This document shows positions 34,542-57,486 of a stretch of 64,000 nt of DNA, piece after piece; position 1 is the first letter of the stretch; each line of letters starts with the position of its first letter. The position numbers and the translations under genes are program-made. A model generated the notes under the pieces. The model was not told the DNA's origin. It saw nothing but the letters and a program-made list of their open reading frames with translations, and made no database searches. This stretch comes from Centroberyx gerrardi (taxonomy: Eukaryota; Chordata; Actinopteri; Beryciformes; Berycidae): assembly GCF_048128805.1 (NCBI RefSeq), contig NC_136000.1, positions 19,509,946 through 19,573,945 of the forward strand, given 5' to 3'.

Positions 34542-35719
34542 GTGATCAGAGGTTGTGATCACCTATTTTCAAACTTTTTCACCATTCGGGATTACACGAT
34601 GCCTCCTCACACTCTAGAATCTCTAAAGTGCTCAGAGTGCCATAAACTGCTACAGAAGATTGCTTTACTAGAAACCAGAATTTTTGCATTGGAAAATGAC
34701 AGAGAACTTCATGACACACTTCCAATGTCTTCAGTCGGTGAGTTAAAACAGCCTAGAACTCAGGCTCAGAGTGCTAATGAAGTGCCAGCATTGAATGATT
34801 CCATAACCTTCCCAAAACTTGGTAAACCTGAACCAGTACCAAAGAAACTAACTGAACAGACTGAGTCTGCTACCCACTGGTATACGCTCGGCGCAAAGCC
34901 CAAAAATAATCACACAAATAGACAGCAGACTAATGCAAATAAGAGACTGCAGTCATCCCCGACATTACGGCTGGAAAATAGATTTGAACCACTATTGAAT
35001 CAGAAATGGCGACCACTATTGATCATTTGCACAAGGAAGAACGGCAACGAACTAAGGTGCGCACAGATAAAGGGTTAAAGTCAAAGGCTTGGACGGACAA
35101 GAAACCTGGCCCCCCAGTGGAGCAGACACCTGTGCTGGACATTCTCATTGTTGGAGACGCCGCTATCAGAAACATAAGCGGTAAGATGATCAAAACATGT
35201 TGTTTTCCAAGTGCAACGGTCTGTGACATCAGTGAAAAAATCCCCCAAGTACTGTCTGACCACCCAGAAATGAATCAAATCATTGTACATGTGGGGACAA
35301 ATGATATTCGCAGAGAGCAGTCGGAACTGCTAAAGCTGGACTTCATTGAACTTTTTAACAGACTTGGCAAACTAGAGATTCAATCCTTTATCAGTGGGCC
35401 ATTACCAACAGCTGACAGAGGAATCAATAAGTTTAGCAGGCTACTTGGATTAAATACATGGCTGTCCAAAACCTGCAATTTAAAAGGACTGAACTTCATT
35501 GATAACTTTAACCTCTTCTGGGGGCGTAGAGACCTTTTCAGAGCAGATGGCCGCCATCTAAACGGGTCCGGAGTGAAACTACTAACGGACAATCTCCTCT
35601 ACTCCCTTCATCACCCATCTGCCCCCCTTCCGGATGCACTCAACTCTGACACACTTCAGTCCCAACTTCAACAGCAACCCATAGATGACCAGTCACTCTC
35701 ACCGCAGCCCCAGTCCTAG
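34542..35719 (+). pseudogene. LINE ORF1 with SGNH-type esterase domain, frameshifted
   Basis: The first part (34,542-35,078) is a polar, Gln/Asn/Lys-rich segment with a Cys-containing start (LKCSECHKLL). After a frameshift in the 35,006-35,078 overlap, the second part (to 35,719) is an SGNH/GDSL hydrolase-like fold: block I ILIVGDAAIRNI, block III-like VHVGTNDIRR and block V RADGRHLNGSGVK. Esterase domains of this kind are known in ORF1 of CR1/L2 elements. The residue normally a catalytic serine in block I (GDS) is alanine here (GDA), while Asp and His of block V are kept. Confidence 0.85.
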
Positions 35720-36169
35720 CCTCAGCTTGGAGCTCTCTGTTCCTCCAGATCACCCTCCCCCTCCCCCTCCCTCTCCCTCTCCCCCGCCTCCCCTCTGTTA
35801 GGATTCACAGATAAGATGGAAGAACTGGTGAATGCCAAAGGACTTAAACTCACCCCCCGACCCCTTCCCCGCCCCGTCCTAGCCAGCCCTCAGGCTCCAC
35901 CACCCCCAAAGCCCCGCTCTTCAATTCTCCCCCTCGTCCCCCTCGCCCATGCCCCCCCCTATTCAACTCCCAGACGTCCTCCCTCAACCTTCATCCATCC
36001 TGGAGGCGCCAAGCGCACTGTGTCACACTAGCATTGCTGATATCAACACCGGAGAAGCAAACAACTGATGGCCTTGGGGTCCCCGCTGCAATGTAGCTGG
36101 TATTCATGAAATTTCCCATATCAAGCTGGGACCCAGTACACGTATTGCTGGATCACAACCACCACCAAG

Positions 36170-38711
36170 AGTGGAGGTGTTGCAGCTCTTTTCTCTGATG
36201 TGTTTCAGTGCAAACAGGTGTCTTTGGGGGATTTTACATCTTTTGAATACCTTGCTTTTACTTTGAAATGTACTATTCAAGTTTTATTTCTGATTGCATA
36301 TAGACCACCTAAACAGTCCAACAATTTCTTTGATGAATTTGGTGAACTCCTGTCCAAAATCTCCACAGATTTTGATTGTCTGGCTATATCGGGTGACTTC
36401 AATATTCATGTTGATAATCCAAATGATAACCATGCTAGAGAGCTGACTAGAATGCTAGAGGCTTTTGGTCTGTTTCAGCATGTGTTGGGGCCCACCCACT
36501 ATCGGGTCCATGTCTGATCATTTCTGTGTTTTCTTTGATGTGTCTATAAATCTGGAACTACAAGCTAGGCCAAAAATTGTTAAAAAAAGCTACATCAATG
36601 ATAATACTGCTGCAGCTTTTATGAACGCCATATCTATGTCACAAATGCCCACCGCGCATTGTATTAATGACCTTGTTGAAAATGTTAATTGTCAAATTAG
36701 GAATGCCATTGATGACATTGCACCAGTTAAGGTGAAAATCTCTGGTAAGCAAAAAGCACCCTGGAGAAATGCTATGTCTGTAAAACAACGGAAAAGAGAA
36801 TGCCGAAAGGCTGAACGTAAATGGCGAAAAACAAAATTCCAAGTTCACTATGATATCTACAAAGAGGAGCTTCAAAACTACAACATAGAATTGAGAAATG
36901 CCAGACAATCCTTTTTTGCCAAGATCATTAGTGAAAATACAAACAATGCACGTACACTTTTTACTGCAGTTGTTAGACTGATAAATCCCCCAGCATCAAT
37001 TGCCCCAGAGCTTCTTTCTACTGCTAAATGTGATGAATTTTCCGCCTTTTTCAGTGATAAGATTGTGAGTATCAGACAAACTATCAGTGCTTCCATGTCT
37101 AACATGAAGGTTATGCCTCCATTTCCTTCACGCATAAATAATGTAAGTAATATGGCAAATTTTACTGCTATTGACTACACAACACTTGAGGACACTATAC
37201 AACAGCTTAAGTCGTCCGCCTGCTGCCTTGACCCTCTGCCCACAAGCTTTTTAAAAAATGTTTTTAGCTGTTTGGCGAATGAGCTATTGCAAATTGTTAA
37301 CAGCTCTCTTTGTCTGGTGTTTTCCCAAATGCTTTGAAAACTGCTGTTATTAAGCCTCTGTTAAAGAAGAGTTGCCTGGATGCCTCTGTGATAAGTAATT
37401 ACAGACCTTTTTCCAATCTCCCTTTTATTAGTAAGATCCTGGAAAAAATTGTCTTCAACCAGCTTAACAACTATTTAATTTCAAATGCCCACTTTGACCA
37501 TTTCCAATCAGGATTTAGACCTCAGCATAGTACTGAGACGGCCCTTATTAGAGTTGTGAATGATCTTCGTATGAACACAGATTCAGGCAAGCTTTCTATC
37601 CTTGTACTTCTGGATCTTAGTGCTGCATTTGACACTGTTGATCACACAATATTATTAGATAGACTAGAAAATTGGGTTGGACTCTCTGGCCCAGCCTTAA
37701 ATTGATTCAAGACACTACCTGCAAGGCAGGAACTACTTTGTGTCTATCGGTGACTTTGTCTCTGAAAGGGTCAGTATGACATGTGGAGTTCCACAGGGCT
37801 CAATCCTCGGCCCTCTTTTATTCAACCTCTACATGCTTCCACTAGGACATATCATACAGAAAAATAGCATTCACTACCACAATTATGCAGATGACACTCA
37901 GCTCTATATATCTCTGTCTTCAAGTGACTTTGGTCCTGTAGATTCTCTGATTCAGTGTATTGAGGAAATTAATGACTGGATGTGCCAAAACTTTCTTCAG
38001 CTAAATAAAGACAAAATTGAGGTAATTATCTTTGGTACTAAGGAAAAGAGGCAGGCAATTAGGGCTCACCTTGACTCCCTGTCTCTCAAGAGTAAAGACC
38101 AAGCTAGGAATCTTGGTGTTATTATGGATGCTGATCTCAATTTCAACAAACATATCAATACCATTACAAGATCAGCCTTTTATCATCTTAAACATATAAC
38201 CAAAGTATGGGGTCTTATGTCAAAACCTGATTTAGAAAAGCTGATACACACTTTCATTACCAGCAGGTTAGACTACTGCAATGGTCTTCTCTCCGGTCTC
38301 CCCAAAAAAAACTCTGGGTTACCGCTCATTCAGAATGCTGCTGCCAGAGATCTGACTAAGACTAAGAAAACACAACACATTACACCAGTTCTTAGGTCAC
38401 TGCATTGGCTTCCAGTGTGCCATAGAATTGATTTTAAAATTCTGCTGCTTGTCTATAAAGCGCTAAATGGCTTAGCTCCAATATACATTTCTGACCTGCT
38501 CTTAGGATATGAGCCACCCAGACCTCTGAGGTCATCTGGGACCGGTCTGTTAGTTGTTCCCAGGGTGAAAACTAAATCAGGTGAAGCTGCTTTTAGTAAT
38601 TATGCTCCCAATTACTGGAATAAACTTCCAGAAGCACTGAGATGTGCTCCCACTGTCAGCTCTTTTAAAAGTTGTCTCGAAACATTCCTTTTCTCTGTGG
38701 CCTTCTGCTAA
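36170..38711 (+). pseudogene. LINE ORF2 (endonuclease-reverse transcriptase), frameshifted
   Basis: The remaining apurinic-type endonuclease part begins near GGVAALFSDVFQ (about 36,172) and includes GDFNIHVD and a Pro-Thr block. The N-terminal part that should hold the first metal-binding residues is absent. Frameshifts occur around 36,470-36,517, 37,310-37,337 and 37,705-37,740. The reverse transcriptase core is recognisable: NYRPFSNLPFISKILEK, LLDLSAAFDTVDH, GVPQGSILGPLLF and the catalytic HNYADDTQLY. The C-terminus carries the conserved LHWLPVCHRIDFKIL and WNKLPEALR blocks of L2-like elements. Product inactive as it stands. Confidence 0.92.
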
Positions 38712-46947: not shown

Positions 46948-47571
46948 ATGCAAATGGTCTCTCGACTCAATGCCCTTAATGACGATCGCCATGAAAACAT
47001 CAAATGCATGTTTGCGAAAGTCCTGAAGAAGGAGCATTATCTTTATGCTGAAGCCTCTAGTTTCTCTGGAGTGACTGCTGAGCTCGACTGTGACCTTTCA
47101 CCTCAGTCTGCTGTTGGTCTCGGCTCCAAACCTGCTTGTGGTTTTGAGAGCCTCAATATATGGGAACCAATAGCCAGTGCAGCTTCATCAGCATGCAAAC
47201 TTCTCTTGGATGTGGACAAAGGAGACCTTCCTGCCAGAGAGAAAGAGTCTCCTCTCATGACCCAGGACACAGCGTTAGGTAATGGTGGAACATCCATCCA
47301 CCCAGCTCAGTATGTTGAAGCTCAGTCCAACCTGCTCCGTCTTGTTGAGGCTCCATGCCATGAGGCTCCAATGACTGATGACTTCAAAATCATTGAGAGA
47401 TTGAGGCTGCTTCAGCACTCCCCCAATGGTTTTGATGATGACTACCACCTGGAGGCAGTTGGGAAGAGATACCTCTATGCTCCCCCAGGTGACACATCTG
47501 GATTTGTGGCTGACTGCTGCTCACCCTGTGGATCCACTCTGGGCTGCCTGGATGAGTGGGTACTCTTATAG
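46948..47571 (+). CDS. Unrecognised 207-codon ORF
   Basis: An open frame encoding a mildly acidic, serine/cysteine-containing protein; no Ig, FN3, transposase or integrase motif is visible and I do not recognise the family. The last third is the most protein-like, with the segment FDDDYHLEAVGKRYLYAPP and a cysteine-rich end, DCCSPCGSTLGCLDEWVLL. There are no simple repeats, codon use is ordinary and the frame opens shortly upstream of the ATG (stop at 46,915). It may instead be the terminal exon of a small gene entered by splicing at 47,072. It lies wholly inside the inverted-repeat element, about 1.1 kb upstream of the titin-like gene and on the same strand. A chance ORF of this length in AT-rich DNA is unlikely but not excluded. 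Confidence 0.4.
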   Translation: MQMVSRLNALNDDRHENIKCMFAKVLKKEHYLYAEASSFSGVTAELDCDLSPQSAVGLGSKPACGFESLNIWEPIASAASSACKLLLDVDKGDLPAREKESPLMTQDTALGNGGTSIHPAQYVEAQSNLLRLVEAPCHEAPMTDDFKIIERLRLLQHSPNGFDDDYHLEAVGKRYLYAPPGDTSGFVADCCSPCGSTLGCLDEWVLL

Positions 47572-47621
47572 TGTCTTTGCACATTTCTTTAAAACACACC
47601 TTTATTCCTGCAGTTATGGGT

Positions 47622-47665
47622 AACCTGTAGCCTAAAGCAGTGAAAGTGCAATGGAATTAGTAAAT
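47622..47665 (+). repeat. Direct repeat, copy 2
   Basis: Partner of the repeat at 46,117-46,160, about 80% alike over some 44 bases, lying just 3' of the unrecognised ORF. Confidence 0.6.
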
Positions 47666-47904
47666 ATATGTTGGCCATTAACATTTTCTTTACCTCTATT
47701 ACTAACAATATAATCAATATTTATTCTAAATGTGGTTGTTTTGTTTTTCTGTGAGAGTCTTTTAATATACCACTTGTTTTCTGCAAAAAAAAATAAAAAA
47801 AAATATTATAAGTAAGTACAAGGTGTGCAGGCTTTATTGAATGTTAGATACAGTATATTGAGATGAAATATCAAATATGTCAATTTTATAATATAAAATG
47901 TTTG

Positions 47905-47985
47905 CCTGATGAAGGTCTGATGACCGAAACATCTTATTAAATTATCTTGCAAGTACAGACAGTGTGCAGGATTCTATTCCTCTCT
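47905..47985 (+). repeat. Retroelement-like direct repeat, copy 2
   Basis: Partner of 46,706-46,850: gatgaaggtctgatgaccga followed by cttgcaagtacagacagtgt and gcaggattctattcctct. Confidence 0.5.
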
Positions 47986-48499
47986 TAATATAAAATGTAA
48001 AATAAAAACCTTCATAATCCTTTTATAAAACAATTTAGGGTCTAAATACTTACTCCATAACTACAGGGAACAAGCATAACATTTGTTTTGTCCCCCCTAA
48101 TTACGTTACATTGTACCTTGTAATTATTTTTTAAGTATGCAGTAATTACAAAAAATAGTTACACCATAACTACCTTATAAACCTCTCATAATTACAAAAT
48201 TGTTACCCATTAATTCCGGGACTTCTTGTTTTGTTACCCTGTAACTACAGCATTGTTCTTTTATTAGTACTCTATAATTACAAACTAGTTACACTGTAAT
48301 TAGCGGGCTGTAAAATAAAGCGTTACCAAAAAATGTTATTGGACACCCAAATTATAAAGCCACATAGTAAGTCACCTGTAAATGGAGTGACAGCCTATGT
48401 GTACAATATGTGACAGTAGGCTGAGTAACTTCCCAGTTTTTCCAAGCTGACCTAATATACTATAAGCCAACTTTGCAAGACTGACCAGTTAGCCAATCA

Positions 48500-48651
48500 G
48501 CCATCATGGTTATTTTAGTCACTGCATGCCTTTAAAGATAAAACAGGCAGTGACTGGCAGAGCTGTGTATGTCTGCCACTGAGCTTTGCTTCTCACTGCA
48601 GTAGCTGCATCTTGAATCCACATTAATAAACACGGACAAGCAAGACAAAGG
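48500..48651 (+). promoter_or_regulatory. Candidate core promoter and leader of the titin-like gene
   Basis: A TATA-like tttaaagataaaa lies at about 48,531-48,543, some 110-120 bases before the ATG. Leader-like sequence without upstream ATG triplets in good context follows. This starts only about 170 bases after the inverted-repeat element ends. The call rests on position and base composition only. Confidence 0.3.
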
Positions 48652-51600
48652 ATGGAAGCAAGCAACAATAAAGTAAGTAAGGCTATGTTTCAAATTTAAT
48701 ACTCAGTTCCAAAAATATTTTAAGAGTTTACTTATAGAAAAGAATAATAGTTGATGACTCCTCACAATCAATTTTTGATTCTTATATTTTTCCTCTTTGG
48801 GTCTTTTCGTAAAGTTTCATAAAAGTTTCAGGATATAAGAGCCACCATGAGTCAGATAAAATTAGAGTTTAATCTGTTTGGCAGAACAGTTGGTGGTCTG
48901 GTCTGCCATGCCGTTCTAAAGTTATTTTTAACACCATCAAGAGTTACTACCAATAGACCACACTCACTAGAATATATGATAGCTTGTTTTTAACACTAAA
49001 GTTAGTCTTCAAGTTAAATTTTTGTCAAGATCTTTTATGTATGATCACATTTTTATAGCAAATATTACTATGGTAATAAACATATACTGTCACTGTCCTG
49101 TCTACGAGGACGTAAGGGATGTACTTTTTAGTAAAATGTCCTCTATTTATGTTGATTTCTTTGGGCTGGATGATTATGAAAAACTTGAGTTGTGCTTCAA
49201 GAAGGGAATCTTTTCTGTAGCAGATTTTATTTGCCAAGCTTGGGAGAGAAGGCAGAATATTTTGTTTAAGATCGAGCTGTATAATAATCTGTAATTTTGT
49301 AATGAAATGAAATGTATGACCACTGCAACTGTAACTTTGGTGTCTTGTAAACCCATGAGGGTTGGGCACTTTGTGTGCATGACACGAAAATAAAAGAAAA
49401 TCAATCATAATAAAAGAAAATCAATATACCTCCCAACAGCAAAACAGTCATATCAGTCACAGTACAATAAGGGAGAAAATTGTTTGCCCTAATAAAGTGT
49501 CTGCTACTCTGTTTGATTCTCTAGTCTCTGACAATTTCTTTCTGTTCTTATTTTTCTAGACGGGAACTACAGCTGAGGATAAAGCTCACCCTCCAAATAT
49601 AAATGTGACACCAGATCGAGAGCTCACCCCAAAGGATTCCCAGTCACCCTCTAAACTCATTGTCCATGGTATGTCATACACTCATCTCATCACCATCTAG
49701 TCTAGACTGTAGACATTGTTCTGCTTTAAATTAAAATAAAAAAATATTTGAAATAGGTTCTAAATTGTAACAATTAAAAATACAATAGAAATGCCAGTTT
49801 AAAAACTTTAATAGTTACCAGAAGCATTATAGTATTTTTGAACCAAAAATAATGTCCTCAGAAGTATCTTCTTATGAATTACATGATATATTTTTTCTCT
49901 GAGATGCCAAATACATACTACAGAATACACAAAAGAAATTAAAATATTTCAAATACACGCAGAGCAAATTTAAACTATACTTTTTTTAAATAATTTAATG
50001 TGTAGCCAAACTATTCATAACATCCATGTGTCCAGACAAGGACATTTACAAAATCACATAGATGTCTTTGGTTTGCCATGAAACATATAAATCTTATACA
50101 TTTAGTCTGTACAGTGCGCTCATCCTTTGTTACACTGATTCAATATTTTTGTGTCTTCACACCAGGTCAGCTTGCCAGTTCTCTTGAGAAGGGCAAGCAC
50201 AAACCTAAGCTCCTAGCTGACCCTGTGACAGATAAGGAAAATGCTGTTAAGCCAAAACTCCAGATAAGTTTGAGCACATTCACTGTCAAGTGTGGTGAAG
50301 ATCTGAAAGTAGAGATCCCAGTGACCGGGCTCCCAGCACCGAAGATTGAATGGAAAAAAGATGGTCAGACAATTAAAGAGACATCAAGGCTGGAAGTTTC
50401 AAATACATCATCATCAACAGTTCTTCGTATCAGATATGCTAACAGGGAGAATTCTGGCCAGTACTCTATCACAGCAAGCAACAGTGCTGGAGCAGTTACG
50501 GGAGAAATTACTGTGGTTATTCTTGAAAAGCCTGACCCACCCACAGCGCCTGTGAGGATCGATGAGGTCAGTTCTGACTTTGTCACCATTTCCTGGGAGC
50601 CACCAGAATACACAGGAGGTTGCCAGCTAGACAACTACATAGTGGAGAAACGTGACACTGCAACTACAGAATGGCAGATTGTGTCAGCAACTACAGTAAG
50701 AACCACAATCAAAGTCACCAAGCTGAAGACAGGTAGTGAATACCAGTTCAGGGTTTTTGCAGAAAACAGGTATGGAAAGAGCACTGCAATCAGCTCCCCT
50801 ACTGTTATTGCACAGTATCCTTTCACTGAGCCCTCCGCTCCTGGCACCCCCTTTGTGTCCACAGTGTCAAAGTACAGCATGGTGGTTGAATGGAAACCTC
50901 CTGCCAAAGACGGAGGCAGCCCCATCATCGGCTATCACCTTGAACGCAAAGAGAAGAACAGCATTCTATGGACCAAGCTGAACAAGCTTGTTATAACTGA
51001 CGCTCGCTTCAAAACATCTGGACTGGAGGAAGGCATTGAGTATGAATTCAGAGTGTTTGCTGAGAATATTGCTGGAGTCAGCCCGTTTAGCAAGATATCT
51101 GAATGCTACGTGGCAAGAGACCCCTGTGACCCACCTGGGAAACCTGAAGCTATTGTCATCACTAGGGAGAATGTCACCCTCCAGTGGGCAAAACCCCAGT
51201 ATGATGGAGGAAGCACCATCACAGGTTACATTGTTGAAAAGAAGGAGCTGCCCGATGGCAGGTGGATGAAGGTGAACTTCACCAATGTTATTGAAACTCA
51301 GTTCACAGTCACAGGCCTGACAGGAGGCGAGAATTATGAGTTTAGAATAACTGCCAGGAATGGTGCTGGTGTTTGGAGCACACCCTCTGAGAGTACAACG
51401 ATCATCGCTCAGGATGTTATTGAAGCACCAACAGCATCCATGGATCCTAAATTCAAGAGTGTAACTGTTATTCCGGCTGGTGAGACATTTACTATTGATG
51501 CTGATTACTTGGGGAAGCCCCTCCCCGAGATCAAGTGGTTGAAGGATGGAAGGGAAATTGACAAAGGTACATCCAGAATGGAGGTCAAAACCACCCTCAC

Positions 51601-54600
51601 TCATACTGCTCTGACTGTCAGGGACTGTACACGAGTGGATGGGGGACACTTTGTCTTGAGCCTCAGTAACATTGGTGGAACTACATCTATCCCAGTTAAT
51701 GTGAAGGTCCTGGATAGACCTGGTCCTCCTGATGGGCTGCTGAAGGTGAAAGTTGTCAGTGCAGAGAAGTGCCACCTTCACTGGAACCACCCCTTGAATG
51801 ATGGAGGTGCCAGTGTTTCCCACTACGTCATTGAGAAAAGGGAGACTAGCCGCGTCTCGTGGACCGTGGTTGAGCCTCAAATCCAAGCTGTCAGTTACAA
51901 AGTGACAAAACTGGTGCCTGGCAAAGAATATATATTCAGAATTGCTGCAGTGAATAAATTTGGTGTCGGTGAACCTCTGGAGTCAGACCCCTTTATTGCA
52001 CAAAACCCTTTTACAACTCCTAGTGCACCTTCAACTCCTCAAGCCAGTGCTGTGACTGGAGACTCTATAGTGCTAACGTGGGAAAGGCCTGAGAGTGATG
52101 GTGGTTCAGAAATTGATGGCTACATCTTGGAGAAACGTGACAAAGATGGCGTCAGGTGGACTAAATGCAACAAGAGAAGACTAAACGACCTGCGTTTCCG
52201 ATGCACAGGACTTACTGAAGGACATTATTATGAGTTTAGAGTATCAGCAGAGAATGCTGCAGGTGCAGGTGCACCCAGTGAGCCAAGTGAGTATATTAAG
52301 GCCTGTGAAGCTACTTACCCACCTGGCCCTCCTACCAACCCCAAAGTAACTGACCATTCCAGCACTACTGTGTCTCTGGCTTGGTCAAAGCCCATCTATG
52401 ATGGCGGAGCAAACATCAGTGGATTTGTAGTTGAGATGAAAGAAGCAGCAGAGGATGAGTGGACCACATGTACACCAATCACAGGTGTAGAGGACACAAA
52501 CTACACTGTGAGGAGACTGAGAGAGAATGCTGAGTACAACTTCCGTATACGTGCGATGAACATTGCTGGACTTGGAGAGCATGTGGATTTACCCAGGTCT
52601 GTGACTGCAGCTGAGAAACTGGAGGCACCTGAGATTGAGTTGGATGCTGCCTTGAGGAAGATTGTGAATGTTCGGGCCTGTTCCACACTGCGTCTGCTTG
52701 TCACCATCAGAGGGAGGCCAGAGCCTGAGGTCAAATGGACAAAGGCAGGTGGTGCTCTCAGTGGACGTGCTCAGATTGAGGTTACAAGCTCCTACACAGT
52801 GTTATTGATTGAAAATGTCAATAGACTTGACACAGGAAAGTATGAGTTGACTGTTGAGAACTGCAATGGCTCCAAATCAGCATTCATCAGTGTTCGAGTG
52901 CTGGACTCACCCAGTGCACCAACCAACTTTGAAGTGAAGGATGTAAAGAGAGACTCTGTATTGATCTCATGGGAGGCACCTCTCATTGATGGCGGTGCAA
53001 AGATTTCACACTACATAGTGGAGAAGAGAGAGGAGGCTAGAATGGCATTCGCAAGTGTCTGTAGCAACTGTGTGAGAAACTCATACAAGATTGACAATCT
53101 CCAGGAAGGATGCTTCTATTATTTCCGTGTCCTGGCTGTGAACGAGTTTGGCACTGGACAGCCAGTGGAGACAACTGAGGGTGTCAAGGTTTCTGAGGCT
53201 CCTCTGCCTCCTGGTAAAATCACTCTCAGTGACGTTACTTGCAACAGTGCGACACTCTCATGGGAGAAGCCTGATCATGACGGAGGAAGCAAAATCACAT
53301 GCTATGTTGTAGAAATGCAGGCTAAGGAAGATGACAAATGGACAATATGTTCAGACATTAAAGCACTGGAAGCAACTATTAATGGGCTGACAAAAGGAAA
53401 GGAGTATTTCTTTAGAGTGACAGCCGTGAATGACAAGGGAAAGAGTGAACCAAAGTCCCTATTGGCACCTGTTACTGTAAAGGACATTACTGCTGAACCC
53501 ATCATTAATTTGCTGTGCAACACATTCAGTGTGAAGGCAGGAAATGATTTAAAGATTGATGTTCCATTCAAGGCTATACCACAGCCTGAGGTAGCCTGGA
53601 AAAAAGATGGCAACCTACTGAAGGAGACGAGTAGGGTAAATGTGCAGACATCTGACACATCATCTCAGATCATTATCAAAGATGCCACCAGGGTGGATGT
53701 TGGAGAATATGAGGTGACTTTGACCAACTCAGTTGGAACCAAATCTGCTGAGATCTTTGTTAATGTTTTTGACAGACCCGGACCACCAAGTGACATCACT
53801 GTGGATGAAGTGAGTTCTGACTTTGTGTCTCTGTCATGGCAGCCCCCAAATTATAATGGTGGATGTCAAATCAACAATTATGTGGTTGAGAAGAGAGACA
53901 CAACCAGCACAATATGGCAGACTGTGTCAGCTACAGTTGCCAGAACATCAATCAAAATTTCTCGTCTTACACAAGGCACTGAATATCAGTTCCGCATTGC
54001 TGCAGAGAATCGCTATGGCAAGAGCCACTTTGTTGACTCTGAACCTGTAGTTGCCCAGTATCCCTTCAAGCCCCCTGGTCCACCAACCAACCTCCATGTT
54101 GCCCATGCCTCAAAGTCTGTCATGGTGGCTGCTTGGAGCAAGCCACACAATGATGGTGGCAGCCCTATCATTGGTTATCACATTGAATGCAAAGATCAAA
54201 GCAGTATTCTGTGGACAAAGTTAAATAGGAGCCCAGTGACCGAGAACCAGTTCAAGGTAACAAGCGTTGAGGAGGGCCTGATATACGAGTTCCGTGTCAG
54301 TGCTGAGAACATTGCTGGTGTTGGATCCTGCAGCAAAGCATCTGAGCCTGTAGCAGCCAGAGACCAGTGTGATCCTCCACGCAACCTCACGGTCACCAAT
54401 ATAACTAATAGCTCAGTTTCTCTCTCCTGGGACAAACCAGAATATGATGGCGGTGCCAAAATAACGGGTTACATTGTTGAGTGTAAAGAGCTCCCGGATG
54501 GCTGCTGGCTTAAGTGCAACTTCACCAATTTACTGGACACCTACTTGGATGTGACAGGCCTCACAGAGGATGCTCAATATGATTTCCGGGTTATTGCGAA

Positions 54601-56673
54601 GAATGCAGCTGAACTCTTCAGTGCACCCTCTGAGGACACCGGAGCTGTCACAGTAAAGCATGATGTGGATTCACCCACCATTAGCTTGGAGGACAGATTT
54701 AGACAGGCAGTGGTTGTCAAAGCAGGAGACCTCCTGAGAATAGATGCTGATGTAACTGGCCGTCCCCACCCTACGGTGTCCTGGTCTAAGAATGGTAGAA
54801 AGATTGACACCAAGGGAAGGGTGGAGGTAACATCAACAAAGACGCACACCTCTCTACTTATCAAAGAAAGCATCAGGAAAGACTCGGGACAGTACATTCT
54901 GACCCTACAGAACACAGGTGGTACCAGATGTCAGGCTATCACCTGCAAGGTGCTGGACAGGCCTGGCCCACCTGCTGGACCTCTGGAAGTGTCTGGACTC
55001 TCAGCAGAGAAATGCACCCTGAAATGGGGGCCCCCTCAGGAGACTGGTGGTGCTGAGATCATGCACTACATTGTTGAGAAGTGTGAAACCAGCCGTGTAG
55101 CCTGGACCCTGGTGTACGGAGACATGATGGCAACAACATGCAAAATCACCAAGCTGCTCAAAGGAAATGAATACCTATTTAGGGTGAGGGCGGTGAACAA
55201 ATATGGCGATGGGGAGGCCCTGGAAAGTGAGCCCACCAAGGCCATGGATCCCTTTACTGTCCCATCTGCTCCTACTGATGTTGAGGTCACAAGTGCAACC
55301 GGCGAGGCTATGACCATCTGCTGGAAGAGACCCGAATCTGATGGTGGCAGCAGCATCAGTGGTTACATCATCGAAAAGAGGGAGAAGCAGGGCCTGCGCT
55401 GGGTCCGCGTCAATAAGAAACCCGTCTATGACCTGCGAGTCAAAGCCTCCAGCCTGCGCGAGGGATGCGAGTATGAATTCAGAGTCTTCGCTGAGAACGC
55501 TGCTGGACTAAGTGATCCCAGTGTCCCATGCCCGCTCACCCTGGCAGAGGATCCCAAGTTTCTACCTTCCCCTCCAGCAAAGCCCGCTGTGATTGACTCC
55601 ACCAGGTCCTCCATCACTCTGACATGGAACAAGCCACTGTTTGACGGTGGAGCGGCTGTAACTGGGTACAGAGTCGAATACAGAAAAACAGCAGAGGAAG
55701 ATTGGACTGTCGGCGTTATGAACACAGATAAAACAGAGTTTGCAGTGTTTGGACTCACATCAGGGGTGGAGTATGTGTTTGTTGTCAGATCCATAAACAA
55801 GATTGGTGTCAGCGAGCCCAGCCCTGAGACGGATCCTGAAGTGGCCATGGAACGAGAGGAGGAGCCCATGTTTGACATTAGCAATGAGATGAGGAAGACG
55901 CTCCTTGTTAAAGATGGCAGCTCCTTCACTTTGACTGTGCCCTACAGTGGCAAACCTGTTCCCAGTGTGATGTGGGACAAAGCTGATGTAGATCTGAGAG
56001 TCAGAGGAATGATCAATACCACCAGCAGCGTCACCTCTATCACAGTTGAACGGGCAACGCGTGATGACTCTGGTAAATACACGGTCAAACTGCAGAATAC
56101 CGCTGGGAAAGCCAGTTTGACCCTGAACGTGAGGGTTTTGGATTCCCCTGGTCCTCCAACTCGTGTTGCAGTTAAAGATGTGACCACGACCTCTGCCACC
56201 ATTACCTGGGACACCCCAGAGAACGAGGGAGGAGCTCCTGTTAAGAACTACCTTGTGGACATGCGGGAGATCAGCAAGAAAGGATGGAGCAGGCTCACTG
56301 ACACCTGCCACCGACTGTCCTATAAGGTGTCTGACCTGGAGGAGGGAGGAGTCTACTTCTTCAGAGTCACCGGTGAAAATGAGTACGGCATTGGTGTTCC
56401 AGCTGAGACCAAGGAGGGAACAAAGATGACAGGTACATTAATCTGAAAGAATACATCATAAGTACTTTATGAAAAGGGTTACTGTGTCAAGTAGTAATAA
56501 ATAACCTAATGGGTGTTATGGGATTAGTGTCTAGGTAATGTGAATAGCTGGAGGGAATAGTTAGATGTAAAGCACTAGAATTGCTTCAATGCACATTATG
56601 CTATTTCCTGAGTAACAAAGTTTTGTTTTTCATTTCAGATCAAACAAATTGGGAGTTAGAACTGTCGGCTTAG
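48652..56673 (+). CDS. Free-standing titin-like protein: 21 Ig/FN3 domains of the A-band C-zone type
   Basis: Four coding exons with GT-AG junctions: 48,652-48,672, 49,560-49,668, 50,166-56,432 and 56,639-56,673. They sum to 6,432 nt in frame (2,143 aa). After about 70 low-complexity residues, domains follow in the order Ig-FFF-Ig-FFF-Ig-FF-Ig-FFF-Ig-FFF-Ig-F (6 Ig, 15 FN3), each about 97 aa. This is one full 11-domain titin C-zone super-repeat and ten domains of a second. Period marks: FN3-1 (DEVSSDFVTISW) and FN3-9 (DEVSSDFVSLSW) are exactly one super-repeat apart, as are the two ELPDG(R/C)W segments. Titin-type linkers (DRPGPP, DSPGPP) recur. There is no kinase, PEVK, Z-repeat or signal peptide. 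In muscle, such domains are laid along the thick filament and bind myosin and MyBP-C; whether this protein does is inference. The 6.3-kb exon recalls the giant A-band exon of titin, suggesting a duplicated piece of that gene. Introns are small; intron 1 carries a LINE fragment. Confidence 0.88.
49020..49430 (+). mobile_element. 3' fragment of a LINE ORF2
   Basis: The 49,022-49,294 frame contains CHCPVYEDVRDVLFSKMSS and ends VADFICQAWERRQNILF, typical of the extreme C-terminus of fish LINE ORF2 proteins (Cys-rich CPxYxDxR block, then a Trp-Arg helix). It is followed by a short 3' UTR and a repeated aaaataaaagaaaatcaat tail at about 49,387-49,425. It lies in intron 1 of the titin-like gene, same strand. 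Confidence 0.7.
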
Positions 56674-57041
56674 CAAAGTCACAAAGCTAAGGTCCCTTGT
56701 CTCCTTCCCAACGCCCTGTTTATCACCATCTCTTCCTGTCAAGACTTGGATCCTCATCTATTTCTCATCTTCATCCAGTTTTCTTCTGTTAGATGCATTA
56801 TAAGTATTTGTGAATAGTGTTCAATTCTTGAGATCAATTACAAGATGACTCTATCAATTTAAGTGAATGCACTTTGATTATAATCTTTGGATACATTGCC
56901 AGATAAAGGCAATTATGTTATAATGTTGCCTTTTTAATGTTTGTATACTAGTAACATATTATAATTTTTGATTTGAGAAGAAATTTGCATTATTCTGAGT
57001 TTTTTCTGATTTTTCATTCTATTTGTAAACAAATAATCTAC

Positions 57042-57071
57042 AATAAAGTGAAACTGATAAAAAAAAAAAAA
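57042..57071 (+). terminator. Poly(A) signal of the titin-like gene
   Basis: A canonical AATAAA at 57,042-57,047 is followed 12 bases later by a genomic run of about 13 A (57,059-57,071). The terminal exon would therefore be about 420 bases long with a 3' UTR of roughly 385 bases. The A-run at the cleavage point is unusual for a normal gene end. Confidence 0.65.
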
Positions 57072-57074
57072 TTG

Positions 57075-57486
57075 CTGTTGCTGGGTGTGTTATGTAAAGA
57101 AAGGGTAGCCTCTAACTCCAAATTAAAACCAACGAAAAGACAGCCTATCATCAGCCTAGTCATCATGAACAACAGAAGAGGATGGCAGAGTATCTCACTC
57201 TGTTGACCAAACTGGCCACAGTAACTCAAGCTAACACCCAGGCTGCAGCCAAGTTGTGGGTCCAAGGTCCAAACCTGTTGAGTTGTGCCTAAAAATAGAC
57301 GTCACAAGATATTTTTGCCATCTGTTGCGCTTTATATGCAAATATGTCACTATGGGAACCGGTGCGTAAATACAGGAAAAGGAAGTAGCTAGCAAGTAAC
57401 CGGAACTACCCAACGCAAAAACTTTTCTGTCAACTGAACTGGGAGTAACTTAAACACAAATAACTTTTCGAGCTGAAAATTACAAC
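57075..57486 (+). promoter_or_regulatory. Interval holding the cib1 promoter
   Basis: Only about 415 bases separate the titin-like 3' end from the cib1 start codon, so the cib1 promoter must be here. Visible motifs are a perfect MEF2 consensus, ctaaaaatag (57,289-57,298), immediately followed by gacgtcac, a CRE-like site (57,298-57,305). No TATA box stands out near the start codon. Confidence 0.4.

Follow-up and report, generated by a model that had tools for sequence, protein, structure and literature searches.

A predicted free-standing gene of titin C-zone domains in Centroberyx gerrardi, derived from the giant A-band exon of a resident titin

Projectin, twitchin and kettin, the mini-titins of invertebrates, are smaller titin-like proteins encoded by separate genes, and MyBP-H is a stand-alone Ig/FN3 protein of the thick filament. 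The C-zone super-repeat of titin is usually given in the phase Ig-FF-Ig-FFF-Ig-FFF, where F stands for FN3. The titin C-zone may template the thick filament only within a continuous chain, or it may be able to act as a separate module; titin itself lends itself poorly to a test of these alternatives, since cutting it breaks up the molecule as a whole. According to the available part of PMC12198301, jawed vertebrates have kept one titin and teleosts two paralogs on the same chromosome, and a third, partial titin gene is not mentioned in that part. The stretch analyzed here, 64,000 nucleotides of Centroberyx gerrardi DNA (contig NC_136000.1, positions 19,509,946 to 19,573,945; hereafter the window), contains a predicted gene, here called W, whose coding region consists almost entirely of titin C-zone domains. 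The large exon of W is a copy of the end of the giant A-band exon of a resident titin, and its predicted product is kept under titin-like constraint.

Origin and constraint of the stand-alone gene

W is modelled as four exons, all on the forward strand:

48652..48672, forward strand: predicted exon 1, 7 codons long and holding the start codon, with an open frame, a GT donor and a good start context in a single genome
49560..49668, forward strand: predicted exon 2, coding for an N-terminal peptide that is unique and contains much Pro, Ser and Thr, from AG/GT sites and frame
50166..56432, forward strand: exon 3, with 6 Ig and 15 FN3 domains of the titin C-zone, 21 in all, copied from the 3' end of the giant titin A-band exon
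56639..56673, forward strand: predicted exon 4, an 11-residue unique tail and stop, from an AG acceptor and phase match

A protein search of the fish's own genome (778.9-Mb assembly; 478 candidates at a first look, 23 scored) listed 40 matches. Among the matches listed, W is accompanied by 39 others, all of which fall in two resident titin loci, T1 at 753–809 kb and T2 at 963–1,015 kb, on a contig (C10) different from that of W (C4); weaker members of the family may exist beyond those listed. The giant open frames of these loci measure 5,724 codons in T1 and 5,788 codons in T2 from stop to stop. Exon 3 of W is colinear with the end of the T1 frame (residues 3633–5714, the last 2,082 residues), and the two proteins agree in 75.5% of an alignment of 2,083 columns that has 2 gap positions. 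In the 2,086 columns common to the three sequences, identical residues number 1,573 between W and T1, 1,192 between W and T2, and 1,284 between T1 and T2. The nucleotide homology between W and T1 (75.8% over 6,291 columns; positions 50161–56436 of the window) ends on the right at T1's own splice donor, with the same donor and phase in W. On the left, its boundary falls inside the final strand of the FN3 domain that comes before, with clear identity from EKGK, about 20 bases into exon 3. Comparisons of intron 2 with T1's upstream coding sequence, of intron 3 and the 3' untranslated region with T1's next intron and exon, and of the exon 1–2 region with 4 kb of T1 gave scores that in every case were lower than the mean of the shuffles, and exon 4 is, by eye, unlike the next T1 exon. 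The alignments show predicted exon 3 to be a copy, with T1 as its source and a splice donor in common. A partial duplication of T1 would have carried the 3' third of its giant A-band exon, together with the splice donor, to another contig, by a DNA rather than an RNA route as we infer, and the copy would then have gained new exons 1, 2 and 4 to become a free-standing gene.

The phylogeny agrees with this origin. A mouse titin chain, chain I of the thick-filament structure 8q6t, of which 957 of the 1,079 residues were used, is 64.9% identical to W, 68.8% to T1 and 60.5% to T2 in the common register, and at most 60.0% identical to other full-length registers of T1 and T2. The domain order and register of W agree with those of the mouse and human thick-filament titin chains, and such an order combined with 64.9% identity over 957 residues is, for the predicted protein, far beyond chance. 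Titin chains occupy ranks 1 to 4 for W (best, 1,634 bits), followed by cardiac MyBP-C in fifth place with 245 bits. In a 10-row tree, the clade of W and T1 has a support of 100/100 against T2 and mouse; the tree gives no settled order among T2, mouse and this clade. The end branches are 0.22 for W and 0.10 for T1, and their stem is 0.15. The predicted product of W is thus a titin-derived C-zone protein that lies inside the titin phylogeny in one register. The split from mammals dates back about 430 million years; if the T1 rate has been steady since then, a crude estimate gives an age of about 170 million years or less for the W copy, and so orthologues are predicted in a large teleost clade. 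T2, the longest branch, carries two acidic-rich inserts, which lie inside FN3 domains of the C-zone stretch that was compared.

Exon 3 does not evolve neutrally. The pairwise comparison of W with T1 gives 1.23 synonymous substitutions per synonymous site (dS) and 0.148 nonsynonymous substitutions per nonsynonymous site (dN), and hence a dN/dS ratio, omega, of 0.12, with 405 of 782 fourfold sites differing; all omega values are approximate because dS is near saturation. Omega lies between 0.07 and 0.16 across all 11 segments of the exon. A three-branch codon model over 2,086 codons, which reached the same optima from several starts, puts omega at 0.138 on the W branch, 0.106 on that of T1 and 0.201 on that of T2. 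The fit worsens by 45.7 log-likelihood units when omega of the W branch is set to 1 and by 32.3 when it is set to 0.5, but by 0.6 units when W and T1 are given one common value, so that neutrality is rejected with a branch omega of about 0.14. W has 0 stops in 2,088 codons. Neutral simulations started from T1, with 40 runs per branch length, yielded 66 stops on average, and never fewer than 49, at 0.71 neutral substitutions per site, the fitted branch of W, a mean of 19 (minimum 11) at 0.10, the branch length fitted with omega forced to 1, and a mean of 9.6 (minimum 3) at 0.05. W keeps 236 of the 246 residues that are invariant in nine other register-matched super-repeats. These analyses show that the predicted product of W, a protein of the titin C-zone, is kept under purifying selection like that of titin.

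Gene model, domain register and surroundings

The four exons join in frame into a stop-free protein of 2,143 residues with a predicted mass of about 235 kDa, and all three introns have GT–AG borders, in line with the exon model of an earlier note on this DNA. The same note had given W its own start, stop and poly(A) signal, and these are seen in the start context AAAGGATGG, where −3 is A and +4 is G, in the closed frame, and in an AATAAA at 57042–57047, where 13 genomic A's begin 11 nt later. The N-terminal 76 residues match only themselves in the own genome at E ≤ 1, and the 3' region of W (56433–57480) is single-copy there.

Exon 3 reads Ig-FFF-Ig-FFF-Ig-FF-Ig-FFF-Ig-FFF-Ig-F. The number of 21 domains and their eleven-domain C-zone order, both claimed earlier, are borne out by Pfam, which finds 15 fn3 and 6 I-set stretches on the 2,122-residue open reading frame holding exon 3, by hidden Markov models built from W's own domains, for which 6 stretches are significant as Ig and 15 as FN3, all in one frame, and by the domain parse. 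The own-domain models found no other Ig or FN3 match at E ≤ 10 in open frames of at least 30 codons in all six frames of the window. A Pfam scan confined to the 2,122-residue frame found no kinase, Z-repeats, PEVK or M-line region in it. The exon model, the domain order and the identity to titin together confirm the observation of a stand-alone, C-zone-only gene.

The claim that domains one super-repeat apart are most alike holds for 16 of the 20 domains with a same-position partner and fails for domains 8, 9, 19 and 20, with a shortfall of one or two points in 9 and 20; for domain 11 there is no same-position partner. The two pairs singled out in the earlier note, the first and ninth FN3 (61% identical) and the first and fourth Ig (39% identical), are indeed each other's best internal matches. 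The order of the super-repeat had also been read correctly, but its start is better given as position 4: in the usual phase, W runs through positions 4–11, then 1–11 and then 1–2, and therefore contains two position-1 Ig domains, the "first Ig" whose role in the C-zone super-repeat is treated in the available part of PMC10665226. The features are as follows:

50252..52612, forward strand: positions 4–11, first (partial) super-repeat, from the domain parse
51125..51412, forward strand: position-7 FN3 with the surface motif LPDGR-x5-FTN-xx-E intact (motif from the available part of PMC10665226)
52613..55843, forward strand: complete super-repeat, positions 1–11, from the domain parse
52613..52903, forward strand: position-1 Ig, first copy, from the domain parse (role from the available part of PMC10665226)
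54356..54649, forward strand: second position-7 FN3 with an altered motif, LPDGC-x5-FTN-xx-D
55844..56134, forward strand: position-1 Ig, second copy, from the domain parse
56135..56431, forward strand: last FN3 (position 2), ending at the splice donor in common with the giant titin exon
57042..57071, forward strand: AATAAA and genomic A-run

On its right W is followed by cib1, which codes for calcium and integrin-binding protein 1 and matches a solved structure at E 1e-85. The open reading frame on the left, which matched no Pfam or NCBIfam family, is presumably gdpgp1, as the earlier note had it. Between this frame and W, on the same strand, lies an open frame of 207 residues (46948–47571, forward strand) with no Pfam or NCBIfam match, which may be the last exon of another gene. 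Adjacent open reading frames at 34542–38711 (forward strand) resemble, by eye, a broken retrotransposon of the LINE (long interspersed nuclear element) type with reverse-transcriptase-like pieces.

Proposed function and rival explanations

According to the part of PMC10665226 available, conserved surface clusters occur at two C-zone positions: on the Ig domain of position 1, the counterpart of which binds MyBP-C in vitro, and on the FN3 domain of position 7, with LPDGR-x5-FTN-xx-D/E. The two position-1 Ig domains of W are 76% and 75% identical to those of T1. One of the two position-7 motifs of W is intact (LPDGR) where the T1 counterpart, at about residue 3997 of the giant frame, reads HPDTR. 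Titin is intertwined with myosin tails according to the available part of PMC10665186, and this picture makes docking onto myosin tails the likelier interaction for W. The product would be a rod whose 21 C-zone domains make up almost two 43-nm super-repeats. Most likely it would lie along the thick filament of some muscle with the myosin-tail and MyBP-C-facing surfaces of the titin C-zone, and it could bind myosin or MyBP-C. Since the predicted open reading frame lacks the anchoring part of titin, the rod would bear no tension from Z-disc to M-line; without anchorage at either, it would act as a local filament-stabilizing or stripe-setting accessory. Docking on the thick filament is thus the likeliest role of W, and we regard it as probable, with considerable room for doubt, that a copy of the T1 exon became a free gene under titin-like constraint and serves as a thick-filament accessory protein in some muscle. 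A more far-reaching proposal is put forward tentatively, as a real possibility that falls somewhat short of expectation: some teleosts would have a third, free-standing titin, a "ruler segment" of two C-zone super-repeats that docks unanchored on the thick filament and locally sets the order of myosin crowns, the number of MyBP-C stripes or filament length.

Several observations weigh against a role on the thick filament or against the gene model itself. No MEF2, CArG, MCAT or CAGCTG site was found in 1.35 kb upstream of W, and the same stretch holds 7 CANNTG boxes against 4.5 in shuffles. The second position-7 motif is altered from R to C (LPDGC). Electron cryotomography of relaxed mouse muscle, as given in the available part of PMC10665186, revealed no direct contact between titin and MyBP-C, and the MyBP-C step is therefore doubtful even for titin. 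W evolves faster than T1 (189 unique changes against 97) and, in a common set of 253 invariant residues, keeps 240 where T1 keeps 246. Exons 1, 2 and 4 are predictions from splice sites in one genome. Low omega, approximate with dS near saturation, can arise from folding alone, and this same constraint would be expected if the W product acted off the thick filament and served, in the cytosol or at junctions, as an Ig/FN3 scaffold selected mainly for folding. The new N- and C-terminal tails and the upstream region devoid of the muscle elements listed above would suit such a scaffold. Against it, the constraint on W is indistinguishable from that on T1, and the 236 of 246 register-invariant residues kept comprise core and surface taken together, so that we consider a scaffold unlikely, though deserving weight. 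In another reading, W would provide a free C-zone that competes with titin or MyBP-C and displaces them at certain stages or in certain fibres, thereby setting thick-filament length or MyBP-C occupancy. This would be consistent with a register the same as that of the titin C-zone; Cronos, a shorter, separately promoted titin form, is stage-regulated in zebrafish according to the available part of PMC4720518. Such a competitive regulator seems more doubtful again than the scaffold.

The remaining explanations concern the status of the gene. The weak promoter picture upstream of W would fit a gene that was long selected and is now dead or dying, but the absence of stops from 2,088 codons compares with a mean of 9.6 after neutral drift of 0.05 substitutions per site; the stop count tells only against a loss older than about that distance, and a recent death is improbable. 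A long-dead pseudogene was rejected on the stop-free frame, the branch omega of about 0.14 and the neutral simulations. The A-run behind the AATAAA is what a processed retrocopy of a titin transcript might leave, but a spliced messenger RNA would run on into the next titin exon, whereas W has the T1 donor followed by an intron. Moreover, no common word of at least 8 bases, as expected of a target-site duplication, was found between 57072–57120 and 47501–50170, the 3' region has no second copy, and the frame is not disabled; a retrocopy was accordingly rejected as very improbable. A misplaced piece of a resident titin in the assembly has negligible probability and was likewise rejected: T1 and T2 each retain a stop-free giant open frame, and W differs at about 24% of nucleotides from T1, to which it is most closely related and which remains at its own site on another contig. 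Neither neutrality nor a misplaced titin piece, two of the outcomes named earlier as contrary to a separate C-zone gene, was found, and the earlier interpretation of W as such a gene is supported.

Comparison with known titin-like proteins

W resembles the C-zone of the titin giant A-band exon in its domains, their order and register, the 3' splice donor and phase, and a similar omega. Unlike full titin, it has its own ends, lies on a separate contig and comprises 21 domains only, with no other Ig/FN3 frame in the window. As read from the gene alone, W is like MyBP-C and MyBP-H, stand-alone Ig/FN3 proteins of the thick filament, but its sequence is that of titin, as the bit scores given above indicate. 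The mini-titins are smaller titin-like proteins encoded by separate genes, as is that of W, but they are older family members and did not arise as copies of a vertebrate C-zone exon.

No report of such a gene was found among the titles and abstract beginnings listed by searches of an open-access library; automatic annotation may already list genes of this type as "titin-like" in fish genomes, and W may be an unrecognized muscle-filament protein. Evolution appears to have freed a piece of the C-zone and kept it under selection. Expression in muscle would make W a natural experiment on the idea of titin as a molecular ruler, and if it is indeed a free-standing ruler segment, the function of the C-zone is separable from the continuous titin chain. 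Cronos titin, the shorter titin form nearest to W among those described, is according to the available part of PMC4720518 likewise shorter and separately promoted, being a C-terminal form made from an internal promoter, but it is a ttn isoform, whereas W is a separate gene with C-zone domains only. Relative to the two titins described for teleosts in the available part of PMC12198301, the predicted gene W is a third, titin-derived one.

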